DNA of 56,854 nucleotides from Prochlorococcus sp. AG-402-I23 (GTDB taxonomy: Bacteria; Cyanobacteriota; Cyanobacteriia; PCC-6307; Cyanobiaceae). Below, piece after piece: positions 6,513-51,507 of the stretch. The stretch lies in contig QCIB01000010.1 of assembly GCA_003216915.1 (NCBI GenBank), forward strand, positions 1 to 56,854, read 5' to 3'. The translations under genes and the position numbers were made by a program. How positions within the stretch are numbered: the stretch's first letter is position 1; each line of letters opens with the position of its first letter. The notes under the pieces are model-generated. The model saw only the letters and a list, made by a program, of their open reading frames with translations. It did no database searches and was not told where the DNA came from.

Positions 6513-7460
6513 CTAATATTTGAGACTAAATTTCTTAACTAGCCACTGCGCAAAGATATTTACTACCAAAGAAAGGATCATAAGTACAAAAGCCGCATAA
6601 AAAAGTGATGAAACCTGACTTCCATCAGCCTCACCAAACTGGTTTGCGAGCATGGAGGAAATGGTATATCCAGGAGATAATAGAGACCAACTAAATGCAT
6701 TTGAATTACCAATAATCATTGTCACAGCCATTGTTTCTCCCATTGCCCTACCTAAAGCAAGAAGAACACCTGCCATAATTCCTGATAATGCTGCCGGCAA
6801 AATTACTGAAAATATTGTTTTCCATCTACTCGCTCCAATTCCATAAGCCGCATTTCTTAGCTTTTTAGGAACCTGATTAAGTGAATCCCTTGCAATAGAA
6901 GTCACTATTGGCAAAAGCATTACTACTAAAATCAATATTGCTAAGAAAGAATTCCTGCCTGTAGGTTCTGTACTGAATAAAGGTATCCAACCAAAGAAAT
7001 TATGTAAAAAGACAAAAAAGGCTCTAAAAAAAGGTTCCATAACAAATATTGCCCAAAGTCCCAATACAACTGATGGAATTGCTGCTAATAATTCAACAAA
7101 AGAACCTATTATTTCTCTAAAAACTTTTGGTACAAAGTCCTCGGTAATAAATATTGCAGTTCCAACGCCCAAAGGGATAGTTATTAATAACGAAAGAAAT
7201 GAGGTTACTAATGTGCCATATATTGCGGTAAAAGCTCCGTATTCATCTTTTACAGGATTCCATTCAGAGGTTACTAAAAACTTCAAGCCATACCTTGAAA
7301 AGGATTCAAATGACTGAAAAAAAACTACTAAAATAATGCCTAAAAGTATTATTGCTACTAAACTAGACAAGACTAGAGTAGTATTCTTGAAGATAATATC
7401 TATATTTTTTTCGATACCGAATCTTTTACGATTCTTGAAAAGAGTTAATTTCTCTTCCAT
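6513..7460 (-). CDS. pstC: Phosphate ABC transporter permease PstC
   Basis: 315 residues with a long N-terminal segment before the first helix, about six transmembrane helices, and the EAA loop LRNAAYGIGASRWKTIFSVI. It pairs with PstA. The 106-bp gap to pstS upstream holds a candidate Pho box, suggesting that pstCAB can be read from its own promoter as well as from pstS. Confidence 0.96.
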   Translation of the reverse strand: MEEKLTLFKNRKRFGIEKNIDIIFKNTTLVLSSLVAIILLGIILVVFFQSFESFSRYGLKFLVTSEWNPVKDEYGAFTAIYGTLVTSFLSLLITIPLGVGTAIFITEDFVPKVFREIIGSFVELLAAIPSVVLGLWAIFVMEPFFRAFFVFLHNFFGWIPLFSTEPTGRNSFLAILILVVMLLPIVTSIARDSLNQVPKKLRNAAYGIGASRWKTIFSVILPAALSGIMAGVLLALGRAMGETMAVTMIIGNSNAFSWSLLSPGYTISSMLANQFGEADGSQVSSLFYAAFVLMILSLVVNIFAQWLVKKFSLKY

Positions 7461-48011: not shown

Positions 48012-48098
48012 GTCCAAACTTAATCTAACAAAATCACTTAATACTTCTAACAAGCATTAAACTAATATGATTTAATTGCATTTATATATTTGATAACT

Positions 48099-48248
48099 AT
48101 GGCAGACCAGAAACCTTTATTTAAGGCACCATATGACATAAAAGATGTAAGTGCTCTTTTCGCCATAGTTGCCTTCGTTTTAATAATCGCTGCCATAGTT
48201 GGTAATAACTTATTTGGTTTATTTCAACAAAATGTCAACTTTGGATGA
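48099..48248 (+). CDS. 49-residue single-helix membrane protein
   Basis: ATG 48099-48101, TGA 48246-48248. Starts MADQKPLFKAPYDIKDVSAL; the helix FAIVAFVLIIAAIVGNNLFG follows, with a short polar tail. Good composition and isolated position suggest a real conserved mini membrane protein. Function unknown. Confidence 0.65.
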   Translation: MADQKPLFKAPYDIKDVSALFAIVAFVLIIAAIVGNNLFGLFQQNVNFG

Positions 48249-48806
48249 TTTTTATGAGTAGCAGAATAATTTTATGAACTAAATGCGACTAATATATAGA
48301 CTGTTATAACTATTTAACCCGTCATTATTAATAATAATTCTGCTCTATAACTAGTTTCTTTAAATTATTTTTTAATCTTTGATTTTATAGACTATGACTA
48401 ATTTCTTATGTTATAGTTTTAAGTTGAATAAAACTGAATAACCCATTTGAGAGGTTGACGAGTGGTTTAAGCCTCTAATCTTAAAAACTAAATTATTTTT
48501 GGAAAGAAAATAAATAATCAATCTTCAAACTAACTGATATAAAATACTTCTTATTAAGACTAATAAAATTATAAAAATACCATATGTCTATACTGTTGCC
48601 GCTTTGTTGGCAGTAAGCTTATTTTTTAGATTCTCTAATCTTTATGACTAACGTGACAACTTTAAAAGAAAAATATAATCCTCAAGAATTAATAATAAAA
48701 AAATAAAAAAAGGTTACTTATGAATAATCAAAATATTTTATAATAACTGTAGTCTCATAGCTATAAGAATATTTCGTCACTTTTAAAATACCTTTAAGCT
48801 CTAATA
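48249..48806. other. 558-bp intergenic stretch with decayed tRNA and membrane-peptide remnants
   Basis: Contains the decayed 5' tRNA-Ser half at 48447-48492. Around 48580-48650 one frame reads YVYTVAALLAVSLFFRFSNL without a usable start and may be a gene remnant. Otherwise very AT-rich with no supported gene. Confidence 0.5.
48447..48492 (+). pseudogene. Decayed 5' half of tRNA-Ser
   Basis: GAGAGGTTGACGAGTGG and CCTCTAATCTTAAAAACTA follow the order of the intact tRNA-Ser (acceptor, D arm, anticodon arm) with several changes, and stop after the anticodon arm. The bases upstream resemble those upstream of the second half copy at 49893. Confidence 0.6.
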
Positions 48807-49781
48807 ATGAAAATTGATTCAAAATATAATTCTCAAGAGGATTATTTAATATATTTAATTGAAAATACAAAATATTTCTCAGAAATTATAAATCTTATAA
48901 TTAAGACTTTTCCCGAACATAAAAGTTCTATCAAAAGATCTTTTTATAAATTAGAAAAAAAAGATTTAGAAATAATTGAATATATTTCTAAATTTATTTG
49001 TGAAATTTCAGAAGAAAAATTGAATGAATTTGTAAAAGACTATAAATGGCTTTGTAAAGAAATGATAGTATACCAATTTTTATTTAGAAAAAATAAAGGA
49101 TATAGATTTAAAAGTAATAAGGAAATATTTACAAAAATATATTCTGAAAAAGATTACATGCGTAAATATCTTAATGGATTATTGATAAGTCAAATAATTT
49201 GGAGTAATCATTATCTATCAACTATTAATTTTGTTAATTTCATAGATAACTTCTTCAAAAATTCAACTTTTTTAGAAATTGGACCTGGGCATGGATTATA
49301 TTTATCAATTGCATCAAAGAGTTTGAATTTTTCAAAACTTGAGGGTTGGGATATTAGTAAAACATCTTTATTAACGACTAAAACTAATTTAGAAAGAATT
49401 TCTATATTCGAAGACGATAACTTAAAACTTAAGAAAATAGATATAAATAAAGCAATTGATGTTAAATATCATGATTTTTTTGATTTGGTTGTTATTTCAG
49501 AAGTTTTAGAGTGCGTAGAAAATCCATCACTGGTGTTGAAGAATATTTATGAACTTCTTAGTTTAAATGGTTCTCTTTACATCAATTTCCCAATAAATTC
49601 ACCCGCTCCAGATAATATTTATTTATTAGACAATATTGAAAATATTGAACAATTATTAATAAAAAATAAATTTCAGGTTATTTCGAAATATGAATTCCCT
49701 TCAATGGGGCTTAGTTTAAAAGATGCAAAAATAACTCAAAGCTCCATATCCTGTGTTATGGTTGCTTCAAAAAATATTTAA
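48807..49781 (+). CDS. SAM-dependent methyltransferase in tRNA-Ser island
   Basis: 324 residues. A helical N-terminal region of about 145 residues, then the SAM fold: FLEIGPGHGLYLSIA, GWDISKTSLL, and VVISEVLECVENPSLVLKNI with SLYINFPINSPAPDN. Substrate unknown; sugar or polysaccharide methylation would suit an island gene. It lies between two decayed tRNA-Ser halves and is more AT-rich than the core genes, suggesting transfer. Confidence 0.78.
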   Translation: MKIDSKYNSQEDYLIYLIENTKYFSEIINLIIKTFPEHKSSIKRSFYKLEKKDLEIIEYISKFICEISEEKLNEFVKDYKWLCKEMIVYQFLFRKNKGYRFKSNKEIFTKIYSEKDYMRKYLNGLLISQIIWSNHYLSTINFVNFIDNFFKNSTFLEIGPGHGLYLSIASKSLNFSKLEGWDISKTSLLTTKTNLERISIFEDDNLKLKKIDINKAIDVKYHDFFDLVVISEVLECVENPSLVLKNIYELLSLNGSLYINFPINSPAPDNIYLLDNIENIEQLLIKNKFQVISKYEFPSMGLSLKDAKITQSSISCVMVASKNI

Positions 49782-49892: not shown

Positions 49893-49939
49893 GGAGAGGT
49901 GGTTGAGTGGTTTAGGGATCTAGTCTTGAAAGCTAGATT
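49893..49939 (+). pseudogene. Second 5' half of tRNA-Ser (UGA)
   Basis: GGAGAGGTGGTTGAGTGG and TCTAGTCTTGAAAGCTAGA match the intact tRNA up to and including the anticodon arm (loop CTTGAAA kept), then similarity ends abruptly. Upstream bases hold TATGAT, like an old tRNA promoter. Confidence 0.75.
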
Positions 49940-50022
49940 TATCTTTAGTTGTGCCAATAGCTTTCTTATCTAACTTGACATGCGTTTCCGAACTGTTTCC
50001 GAAAAAATCAACCACCTTTTGA

Positions 50023-50028
50023 TATAAT
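50023..50028 (+). promoter_or_regulatory. -10 box of the tRNA-Ser gene
   Basis: TATAAT, 31 bp before the mature tRNA. The flank differs from those of the two half copies, so the intact tRNA has a different promoter. Confidence 0.5.
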
Positions 50029-50059
50029 TAAAAAGCTAAAAATTTAATATTTTTCGCCT

Positions 50060-50146
50060 GGAGGGGTGGTCGAGTGGTTTAAGGCTCTAGTCTTGAAAAC
50101 TAGCGTGTCTGCAAGGGCACCGTGGGTTCGAATCCCACCCCCTCCG
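50060..50146 (+). tRNA. tRNA-Ser(UGA)
   Basis: 87 nt. Acceptor GGAGGGG pairs with CCCCTCC (discriminator G). The anticodon arm CTAGT-CTTGAAA-ACTAG gives anticodon TGA. The long variable arm (GTGTCTGCAAGGGCAC) is typical of serine tRNA, and the T arm is GTGGG-TTCGAAT-CCCAC. CCA is not encoded. Its 3' 62 bases are repeated exactly at 51172-51233. Confidence 0.95.
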
Positions 50147-50147
50147 T
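50086..50147 (+). repeat. Left copy of 62-bp direct repeat (att-like)
   Basis: From TCTAG in the anticodon stem to the T just after the tRNA; identical to 51172-51233. Interpreted as one end of an integrated element. Confidence 0.9.
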
Positions 50148-50172
50148 AATGAATACTGACTTCTATAGAAAC

Positions 50173-50200
50173 AACTCCTATTAGGAGTTTTCTTTATTTT
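50173..50200 (+). terminator. Terminator after tRNA-Ser
   Basis: AACTCCT-ATT-AGGAGTT followed by TTCTTTATTTT, 27 bp after the tRNA. Confidence 0.75.
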
Positions 50201-50261
50201 CTGACCATTTAAATAAGTTCCTTAGAGTTCCTCTAAGTTGCCGAATTCTTAGTATCAAAAG

Positions 50262-50308
50262 CGGTTACATTTCGGTTACACTTTTAAAAACGGTTACAAG
50301 CGGTCACA
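50262..50308 (+). repeat. Four CGGTTACA-type repeats, left end of element
   Basis: CGGTTACA at 50262-50269, 50273-50280 and 50291-50298, and CGGTCACA at 50301-50308. The first two are 11 bp apart, one helical turn. Possible arm-type binding sites of a tyrosine recombinase. Confidence 0.6.
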
Positions 50309-50369
50309 CTAGACTAGCGAATGAAATACTCCCATTTTAAGAAAATAATTAGAGGAAAATTTAAATAAA

Positions 50370-50870
50370 ATGAAATTTCTCAAAATATTTCTGCAAATAG
50401 TTTTATGTGGTTATATATCAGCTGCGAGTGCAAGTGTTAAAGATGAATATAACCGTAGAGAAAATGAATTAAGAATTAAAAACAATAACTCTTTACAGTG
50501 TTTACAAAATCAACAGGAAAAAGGTGTTGTGCTTTGGTTTATGCGAAACCGAGATGTATATTATGAGTATGAATATGATTATGTTGTCGTAAACGGCGCT
50601 TACCTTGAAATTTGGGAAAATTGTAATATTGTTAGAAGTTATGAGTTTGGCACAACATATAACCGTGGACCCAATTTTAAATTTGAACTTGAATTGTTTT
50701 ATGAGGACGAGGAGCTTTGCGCATCAGGTCGCCCTTGTCGGAACTACTTCGTTAATATGTACGTTAAAGATTCTGATGAAATTAATCTAAAAACTCTTCC
50801 TTCAGGGATTTGGCATGATGACTATATATTTTGGAAAATCTTGTATTTGTTGAAGGTATATTACGAGTAG
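50370..50870 (+). CDS. Secreted protein of unknown function, element cargo
   Basis: 166 residues. Signal peptide MKFLKIFLQIVLCGYISAAS with cleavage near ASA|SV. The mature part is rich in Tyr, Asn and charged residues, with five cysteines (SLQCLQNQ, WENCNIV, ELCASGRPCRN). Higher GC than neighbours (for example GCATCAGGTCGCCCTTGTCG). No family recognised. Only gene in the tRNA-Ser element. Confidence 0.75.
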   Translation: MKFLKIFLQIVLCGYISAASASVKDEYNRRENELRIKNNNSLQCLQNQQEKGVVLWFMRNRDVYYEYEYDYVVVNGAYLEIWENCNIVRSYEFGTTYNRGPNFKFELELFYEDEELCASGRPCRNYFVNMYVKDSDEINLKTLPSGIWHDDYIFWKILYLLKVYYE

Positions 50871-51042
50871 TAAGCGTTTTTTACTTTCTTTGTCTTTTAC
50901 CTTTAGCTCTGAGTACTAAATTTATAGTAATCGCAGTTCTAAGTATTCCAGCATCTATATAATAAGTAATAAAAAATATTTATTAGCCGATCAAAGAAAT
51001 AAGAAGAGTCATTATCTTTTCAGCTATAAATCTTTTATCCAT

Positions 51043-51068
51043 AAATAAGAGCTAATGAACTCTTATTT
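51043..51068. terminator. Hairpin inside element
   Basis: AAATAAGAG and CTCTTATTT form a 9-bp stem with an 8-nt loop. Probable terminator for the cargo gene. Confidence 0.4.
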
Positions 51069-51106
51069 TATATCGATATTTAAAGAATAAAAACAAAACC
51101 GTAAAG

Positions 51107-51125
51107 TGGTTACGTTTCGGTTACA
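51107..51125 (+). repeat. Paired GGTTAC repeats, right end of element
   Basis: TGGTTACG (51107-51114) and CGGTTACA (51118-51125), 11 bp apart, matching the left-end pair in spacing and orientation. Lies 46 bp before the right tRNA copy. Confidence 0.6.
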
Positions 51126-51171
51126 TCTGTTCCTTAAGAGATACTAAAACGGTTGGTATCACTTGAATATA

Positions 51172-51233
51172 TCTAGTCTTGAAAACTAGCGTGTCTGCAA
51201 GGGCACCGTGGGTTCGAATCCCACCCCCTCCGT
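51172..51233 (+). repeat. Right copy of 62-bp direct repeat (3' half of tRNA-Ser)
   Basis: Identical to 50086-50147. It has no 5' half and cannot be a working tRNA. Marks the other end of the element and the probable original tRNA 3' end. Confidence 0.9.
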
Positions 51234-51306: not shown

Positions 51307-51507
51307 ATGAGTAAAGGATTTGCCACAGAAAATTTAATATCCAAAAAATCGAAAAAAAAAGTTATTTCAAATGAACCGCAAGGAAGATTAATATCTTGGT
51401 CTCCTTGGCCACCTGCTAATTTTCAAACACGATATCCTGCTTTCCCTTTGGTTCTTACAATATTAATTATAGTAATCGGGCAATGGTACCTTTCTCTACT
51501 CAGGTGA
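51307..51507 (+). CDS. 66-residue membrane protein
   Basis: Basic N-terminal half, NEPQGRLISWSPWPPANFQT, then a C-terminal helix FPLVLTILIIVIGQWYLSLL. First gene outside the element. Function unknown. Confidence 0.65.
   Translation: MSKGFATENLISKKSKKKVISNEPQGRLISWSPWPPANFQTRYPAFPLVLTILIIVIGQWYLSLLR

Follow-up and report, generated by a model that had tools for sequence, protein, structure and literature searches.

We propose that the 1,086-bp segment bounded by the tRNA-Ser(UGA) gene of Prochlorococcus sp. AG-402-I23 and a displaced copy of that gene's 3' part is one member of a family of tiny recombinase-less cassettes, probably moved in trans by the lambda-type integrase of larger elements with matching ends (a probability of roughly 0.6). 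At this tRNA we observe a family of related elements, empty sites, junctions at the anticodon loop, a common arm geometry, words matched between the two ends, and an integrase family next to the gene. Excision, movement and helper action in trans of the small elements would complete this scheme, as the comparison of their sequences leads us to expect. The window analysed here is a stretch of 56,854 nucleotides (positions 1 to 56,854 of contig QCIB01000010.1) from a draft assembly of 37 contigs that is about 88% complete, and its features at the locus are collected in Table 1.

Table 1. Features of the window on both sides of tRNA-Ser(UGA), in order of position
Feature	Position	Strand	Remarks
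Upstream flank gene U2	48090..48248	+	52 aa
Displaced tRNA-Ser 5' half, left edge of upstream-type element	48448..48491	+	8/44 mismatches
Arm-like repeat pair of upstream element	48595..48613	+	GTTGCCGCTTTGTTGGCAG; about 102 bp from core end
Cargo ORF of upstream element	48807..49781	+	324 aa; methyltransferase-domain protein
Second displaced 5' half	49893..49936	+	5/44 mismatches; 167 bp before intact tRNA
Arm-like repeat pair of 167-bp unit	49984..50003	+	GTTTCCGAACTGTTTCCGAA
Intact tRNA-Ser(UGA)	50059/50060-50147	+	ARAGORN, Rfam
Core, anticodon stem arms around 7-nt loop	50087..50103	+	CTAGT-CTTGAAA-ACTAG
Terminator-like hairpin and T-rich run 3' of tRNA	50173..50195	+	read by eye
Left arm pair	50261..50280	+	GCGGTTACATTTCGGTTACA; 159 bp from core end
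Main cargo ORF	50370..50870	+	166 aa; orphan
Stretch of about 180 bp similar to one elsewhere in the genus	50897..51077	.	
Right arm pair	51106..51125	+	GTGGTTACGTTTCGGTTACA; 47 bp ahead of displaced core
Displaced 3' 62 bp of tRNA-Ser, right element edge	51172..51233	+	0 mismatches
Downstream flank gene D1	51307..51507	+	66 aa; 1248 bp from tRNA start

The window element and its relatives

The 62-bp repeat of the 3' part of tRNA-Ser(UGA) is exact, as the initial annotation had reported, with copies at 50086-50147 and 51172-51233 that stand 1086 bp apart from start to start. The same annotation had described the enclosed DNA as holding one orphan secreted protein and no recombinase, a description that we confirm, with secretion judged by eye only from a signal-like stretch at the N-terminus that makes the protein look secreted. 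The 166-aa protein had no Pfam match up to E 1 and no PHROG match up to 0.01, and when about 5.8 billion proteins were searched and 13 candidates scored, it matched only itself. No recombinase was recognised inside the element among its ORFs, with Pfam or in the integrase search, and the two PF00589 matches of the window genome both lie on contigs other than the window's. Packaging or helper-exploiting genes, the mark of phage satellites, are absent from the element, whose one orphan ORF is its only gene, and its interior matched no phage record. We found no larger ancestor with this cargo in the protein collection or in the genomes of the genus. The interior does have matches within the genus, in 209 of 264 other genomes; among the matches listed, this is almost always through the stretch of about 180 bp that follows the cargo gene, at 72-84% in most. 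That stretch has no second copy in the window genome and no credible Rfam match, and its counterpart in L324 lies outside ORFs of at least 40 aa. Sequence resembling the region of the terminator-like hairpin was seen by eye at several left ends of the downstream type.

The 62-mer has matches in 191 of the 200 genomes that were searched from the genus of the window. The locus was taken from 132 genomes off this match list, those with two matches first, which biases the frequencies given here. We kept 130 loci, each with an intact tRNA; G088 and G111, in which no intact tRNA was found within 12 mismatches, were left out, as was a second piece from G025. We located D1, the downstream flank gene, in 111 of the 130 genomes. 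In 53 of these the site is empty, with D1 160-241 bp from the tRNA start, and in the other 58 it holds inserts, one of them (G096) being an inverted repeat. This case (L046) comprises two copies of the tRNA-Ser region and of an integrase and is perhaps an assembly effect. On the other side, 50 genomes have a recognisable upstream flank gene, U2, which lies no more than 260 bp from the tRNA in 22; the locus is empty on both sides in 12 of the 130. The empty sites that the annotation had proposed to look for therefore exist, and subtracting their commonest D1 offset (161) from that of the window (1248) leaves 1087 bp, against a repeat period of 1086.

A displaced 3' half occurs 0.57-3.4 kb downstream of the tRNA in 21 of the 130 genomes, and displaced 5' halves occur upstream in 40, at a constant 166-167 bp in 27 of them. 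Two of the 21 downstream cases (G043 and G077, with more than 8 mismatches) were excluded from the arm tests. The 19 small downstream elements that were tested measure 0.57-2.4 kb and hold one to three ORFs of at least 60 aa, with a single such ORF in 11. Their cargo interiors are mostly unrelated, and what sequence they have in common is confined to the ends or to short stretches, of which several fall at a common signal-like gene start. Like ends with different cargo, a second check that the annotation had suggested, are thus found at this tRNA, and on these comparisons the common trait of the family is its end architecture, not its cargo. The cargo ORFs of L031, L037, L041, L044, L230, L232 and L242 share a near-identical signal-like start of the MKRLLLPLLAALALPTAVNAE type and then diverge; a loose pattern for this start fits 16 ORFs in the loci.

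The upstream side of the window is also occupied, U2 being 1.8 kb from the tRNA there and about 196 bp at empty sites. Three units lie in the window: the downstream element, an upstream one that carries the methyltransferase gene, and a gene-less 167-bp unit (49893-50060) that is opened by the relic at 49893-49936 and runs to the tRNA. Neither of the two cargo genes (166 aa; methyltransferase) was found at the other 129 loci. Gene-less units of 166-167 bp, made up of a 5'-half relic, one arm pair, a promoter and the tRNA 5' half, are present in 27 of the 130 genomes. Because they stand behind differing upstream sequences, they suggest that this unit was inserted repeatedly. A repeat pair one base off GTTTCCGAACTGTTTCCGAA adjoins the integrases of L141-L144.

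Junctions and putative arm sites

Each displaced half was compared with the tRNA of its own genome in order to map the junctions. Among the 21 displaced 3' halves, 1 of 147 cells differs within the anticodon loop, against 31 of 126 in the six columns to its left and 41 of 1029 to its right, these last mostly from a few old copies. The 44 displaced 5' halves mirror this pattern, with 5 of 308 cells differing in the loop versus 42 of 220 in the five columns to its right. Since the mismatches avoid the loop, the sequence of an element starts on one or the other side of CTTGAAA. These seven nucleotides form the loop, and the stem arms CTAGT and ACTAG on either side form an inverted repeat; an inverted repeat around a short spacer is the expected core layout of a tyrosine integrase. 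Strand exchange would then take place in the 7-nt anticodon loop, which in the window corresponds to 50092-50098. The annotation had noted that the repeat starts in the anticodon stem, where tyrosine recombinases often cross over; the junctions map to the loop.

Within both ends of the window element lie imperfect 23-bp repeats (50258-50280 and 51103-51125) that contain the arm pairs. Most downstream elements have such a repeat pair, phased by 11 bp, inside each end. The left pair is present in 15 of the 19 elements, 13 times at 156-160 bp from the core and twice at 172, and the right pair in 14, 13 times at 46-47 bp and once at 52. Both ends carry arm pairs in 13 elements, while a recognised left pair is missing in 4 and a right pair in 5. 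Dinucleotide-preserving shuffles, tested in position windows that were chosen after the positions were known, gave for the downstream type an expected 0.09 left and 0.04 right pairs, with maxima of 2 and 1 in 1000 shuffles. The upstream elements have their pairs in mirror orientation, the left at 102-104 bp in 11 of 16 and the right at 172-176 bp in 6 of 16, with shuffle means of 0.09 or less in position windows chosen in the same way. We infer from this geometry that the phased repeats are integrase arm sites.

One feature of these pairs is that their words change from element to element. GGTTAC is common to the window and G151, GGTGAA to G001 and G195, GGGTAC to G181 and G199, GGCTCA to G013 and G039, and GGCACA to G053 and G147, and GGGTAT/GGTCAT is found in five other elements. 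In the downstream type (n=19), the longest word shared by a left and a right end averages 13.7 within elements versus 9.1 between elements, a difference reached in 0 of 20000 permutations. Matching of the two ends is weaker in the upstream type (n=16), yet present (10.6 versus 9.0; 35 of 20000 permutations). A near-constant position combined with words that change and yet remain paired is as expected of protein-binding sites with evolving specificity. Exact copies of the right-end motif number 10 in 200 genomes, one in each of 10, and all of them lie in downstream elements of the locus set. When one mismatch was allowed, the motif returned mostly one conserved variant that is unrelated to the elements. 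In G043 (L106, 1430-1520), a downstream-type right end with GGTTAC arms is joined at the tRNA core to an apparent upstream-type left end, and these fused ends lie about 23 kb from the intact tRNA.

Integrases at the locus and candidate helpers

An integrase family, here called A1, is encoded upstream of tRNA-Ser, and divergent from it, at 24 of the 130 loci; 22 of its members are 381-415 aa long, one has 323 aa and one is cut by the end of the locus. The genome collection yielded 26 loci with A1 relatives, all titled Prochlorococcus and two of them from one contig. A tRNA-Ser 5' half lies 187-730 bp away at 25 of the 26, and the gap between integrase and tRNA contains a repeat pair in 25 of 25 (7 or more matching bases of 8; no control by shuffling), with a period of 11 in 13 and of 14 in 12. 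Apart from the inverted repeat of G096, no A1-like integrase was found downstream of the tRNA in the 130 loci, and no A1-like or PF00589-like recombinase was recognised inside the 19 tested downstream elements. Among the matches listed for PF00589 in 200 genomes, none lies downstream of this tRNA.

A candidate for a helper-bearing element comes from L285 (IMGVR_UViG_2667527299_000001), a contig of the virus collection on which tRNA-Ser is followed by GGCTCAC at +228 and +239, an integrase from +271 to +1417, a second small tyrosine recombinase and a VapE-like protein, a gene make-up that appears satellite-like. G013 and G039 each have a recombinase-less element with this GGCTCAC pair at its left end; the full pair is seen at that end only, and the right end shows a single copy of the word. 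Pfam gave no match to the L285 integrase at 0.01, so the PF00589 profile would miss its kind. Its alignment-based structure model (mean pLDDT 89.1, pTM 0.63) found full-length lambda integrase at the top of the solved structures (E 1.2e-6, TM 0.46), with an rmsd of 17.5 over 380 columns that indicates a different placement of the domains. The N-terminal region of the model consists of three strands and one helix; in lambda Int, the N-terminal domain binds the arm sites. The protein collection holds 109 relatives of this integrase, the nearest cluster having 102 members. Its only close match in 266 genomes is in G252 (90% over residues 141-381), where it is cut by the contig end on a piece that showed no tRNA, and the remaining matches, among those listed, are at most 41% identical. 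Around the 30 integrase loci that the search with this protein produced, a divergent tRNA-Ser half lies nearby in 26 and a same-strand half in none.

No integrase adjoining the window's own word GGTTAC was found. In 200 genomes searched with up to two mismatches, 5 places in 3 genomes show a GGTTAC pair, namely the two ends of the window element, two in G043 and one in G151, and a reversed-pattern control gave 1 place. The annotation's suggestion of movement in trans gains some support: two small elements have at their left ends an arm pair that also stands next to an integrase, and the window's word has so far led to no integrase. At about 88% completeness, the window assembly may lack the gene of a helper present in this genome. 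The upstream integrases were considered as helpers of the window cassette and rejected, as their arm words differ and the two show no tendency to occur together; they are present in 4 of 21 genomes with small downstream elements versus 20 of 109 others, which is no enrichment. The window genome also encodes, at C6:55940-57055 (L101), a 386-aa tyrosine recombinase that is related to the tRNA-Ser integrases and 28% identical to that of L285. Matches to the L285 integrase occur in 223 of 266 genomes and, among those listed, are mostly recombinases of 386-404 aa, and it is no more than conceivable that this near-universal type of 386-389 aa acts as helper.

Viral sequences gave few leads. A scan with the right-end motif picked out 40 contigs with no core nearby, which we take as chance, and four viral matches to GGTTAC had no tRNA half. 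The scan for A1 in viral contigs gave 16 stretches, none of which was confirmed; L285 is in this collection all the same, so the scan misses relatives. The tRNA arrays of virus contigs L283, L284 and L287 contain a tRNA-Ser(UGA) with an identical core, a possible docking site in phages. A lone tRNA-Ser 3' half is found on L286, a virus contig of 46.9 kb (about 6700-7200, reverse strand), behind an end that resembles the displaced end of the G042 element.

Possible movement or decay, and comparison with known elements

The turnover of the elements was judged on a tree of the downstream flank (86 of the 130 genomes, about 2.2 kb), a region that may itself recombine and gives limited power. Downstream elements (15 tips) require 14 changes versus a shuffled mean of 14.1 (range 11-15), and the 167-bp unit (22 tips) 21 changes versus 19.7 (range 14-22), so that neither has phylogenetic signal; insert versus empty has some (21 changes, shuffled mean 28.6, range 22-34). 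Such scattered presence would fit rapid gain and loss. Identity among the upstream elements of G043, G055 and G057, which have like cargo, is 96.6-97.9% along some 560 bp, with flanks at 94.6-95.0%, and this points to near vertical descent, with little support for recent transfer.

Could the small elements be decayed remnants of larger integrase-bearing elements that lost their middles, leaving att-bounded scraps that still hold a cargo gene and no longer move themselves? There is precedent, as CIMEs by definition have lost their integration and transfer genes and kept attL and attR (PMC5704250), and decay was suggested for 15 ssrA islands of Dehalococcoides that have no integration module (PMC3146451), as far as the available parts of these papers go. 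The three near-vertical elements with like cargo agree with decay, as do those, G013 and G039 among them, that have no arm pair at one end. However, 13 of the 19 downstream elements keep both arm pairs even though no recombinase was recognised in any, related ends enclose largely unrelated cargo, and the elements are scattered like shuffled labels (14 versus 14.1 changes on 15 of 86 tips, with limited power). We consider decay unlikely, though a serious competitor.

Less probable still is that homologous recombination between the flank genes carries the elements today and that site-specific recombination acted only long ago. The flank genes are conserved on both sides, allele replacement between them is possible, and the flank tree, built on about 2.2 kb, may itself be affected by recombination. 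Against it, a tRNA half and an arm word travel with each element, the junctions fall at the loop, and the 167-bp unit stands behind quite different sequences, which suggests insertion at the core. A lone 62-bp repeat in a draft of 37 contigs could also stem from duplication of the tRNA end on the spot or from an error of assembly, and we give this explanation hardly any weight: displaced 3' halves occur in 21 of the 130 genomes with mostly unrelated DNA in between, the window copy fits the family geometry (159 and 47 bp), and the empty sites and the family-wide geometry contradict it.

Tycheposons were reportedly first described in Prochlorococcus by Hackl et al. in 2023. In the available text on them, they are elements of 4-200 kb in which a recombinase gene is present (PMC10872708). 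The elements described here resemble them in host, in being bounded by a tRNA, in their basis in tyrosine recombination and in their variable cargo, but the 19 small ones measure 0.57-2.4 kb and none was seen with a recombinase. The label of tycheposon that the annotation had considered consequently does not suit the window element: it does lie between a tRNA gene and an incomplete copy of that gene, but no tyrosine recombinase was recognised in it, and its 1,086 bp fall far below 4-200 kb. Elements with an integrase of the L285 type at this tRNA may well be tycheposons. The window element agrees with a CIME in that both presumed att sites, whose function we deduce from comparison, are kept without integration or transfer genes. 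Like CIMEs and the Dehalococcoides ssrA islands, as presented in the portions available, the Prochlorococcus elements are att-bounded, have no recombinase and are stacked at one RNA gene beside recombinase-bearing elements (PMC5704250, PMC3146451). With this precedent, the small elements vary a known kind. Their own traits are the one to three ORFs, insertion on both sides of the tRNA, anticodon-loop junctions and per-element arm words at near-constant distances. The picocyanobacterial integrases at tRNA-Phe and tRNA-Cys are similar as cryptic Prochlorococcus tyrosine integrases upstream of one tRNA with variable cargo, but they use other tRNAs, and the accessible portion of that paper does not describe small recombinase-less members or arm words (PMC10187409). 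Our literature search, in the partial texts it covered, found no account of recombinase-less elements with arm words at this tRNA; the original tycheposon paper may contain one.

We favour the reading of a cassette moved in trans. Its circular form would contain one core (anticodon stem and loop), two flanking arm pairs and its own tRNA 3' half. An integrase that reads the arm word would exchange strands in the 7-nt loop, whereupon the 3' half of the cassette would complete the tRNA and the old 3' half would be pushed to the far end. The mirror class would carry a 5' half and promoter instead and so insert upstream. Integron gene cassettes are single-gene units with common end sites (attC) that are moved by a recombinase (IntI) in trans, and the likeness is in working only, as the ends here are tRNA halves and direct-repeat arms. 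We advance only tentatively, and with distinctly less confidence, the broader idea that tRNA-Ser(UGA) offers, in its anticodon loop, an integron-like docking port. Cassettes from a common pool, most with one or two genes, would dock there on both sides through mirror att sites, with the arm word directing each to its helper integrase; the smallest would be the 167-bp unit, which has no gene and would exchange just the promoter and 5' half of the tRNA.

If the trans-mobilised cassette is real, a streamlined and abundant ocean phototroph would be able to trade single genes in the form of addressed cassettes that bring no recombinase themselves, which would account for the orphan secreted proteins found here and for the unusual two-sided use of the tRNA. 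The matched arm words and integrases would form a natural series in which DNA reading by lambda-type N-terminal domains can be studied, and it would become directly testable which vehicle carries small pieces of genomic islands in Prochlorococcus.
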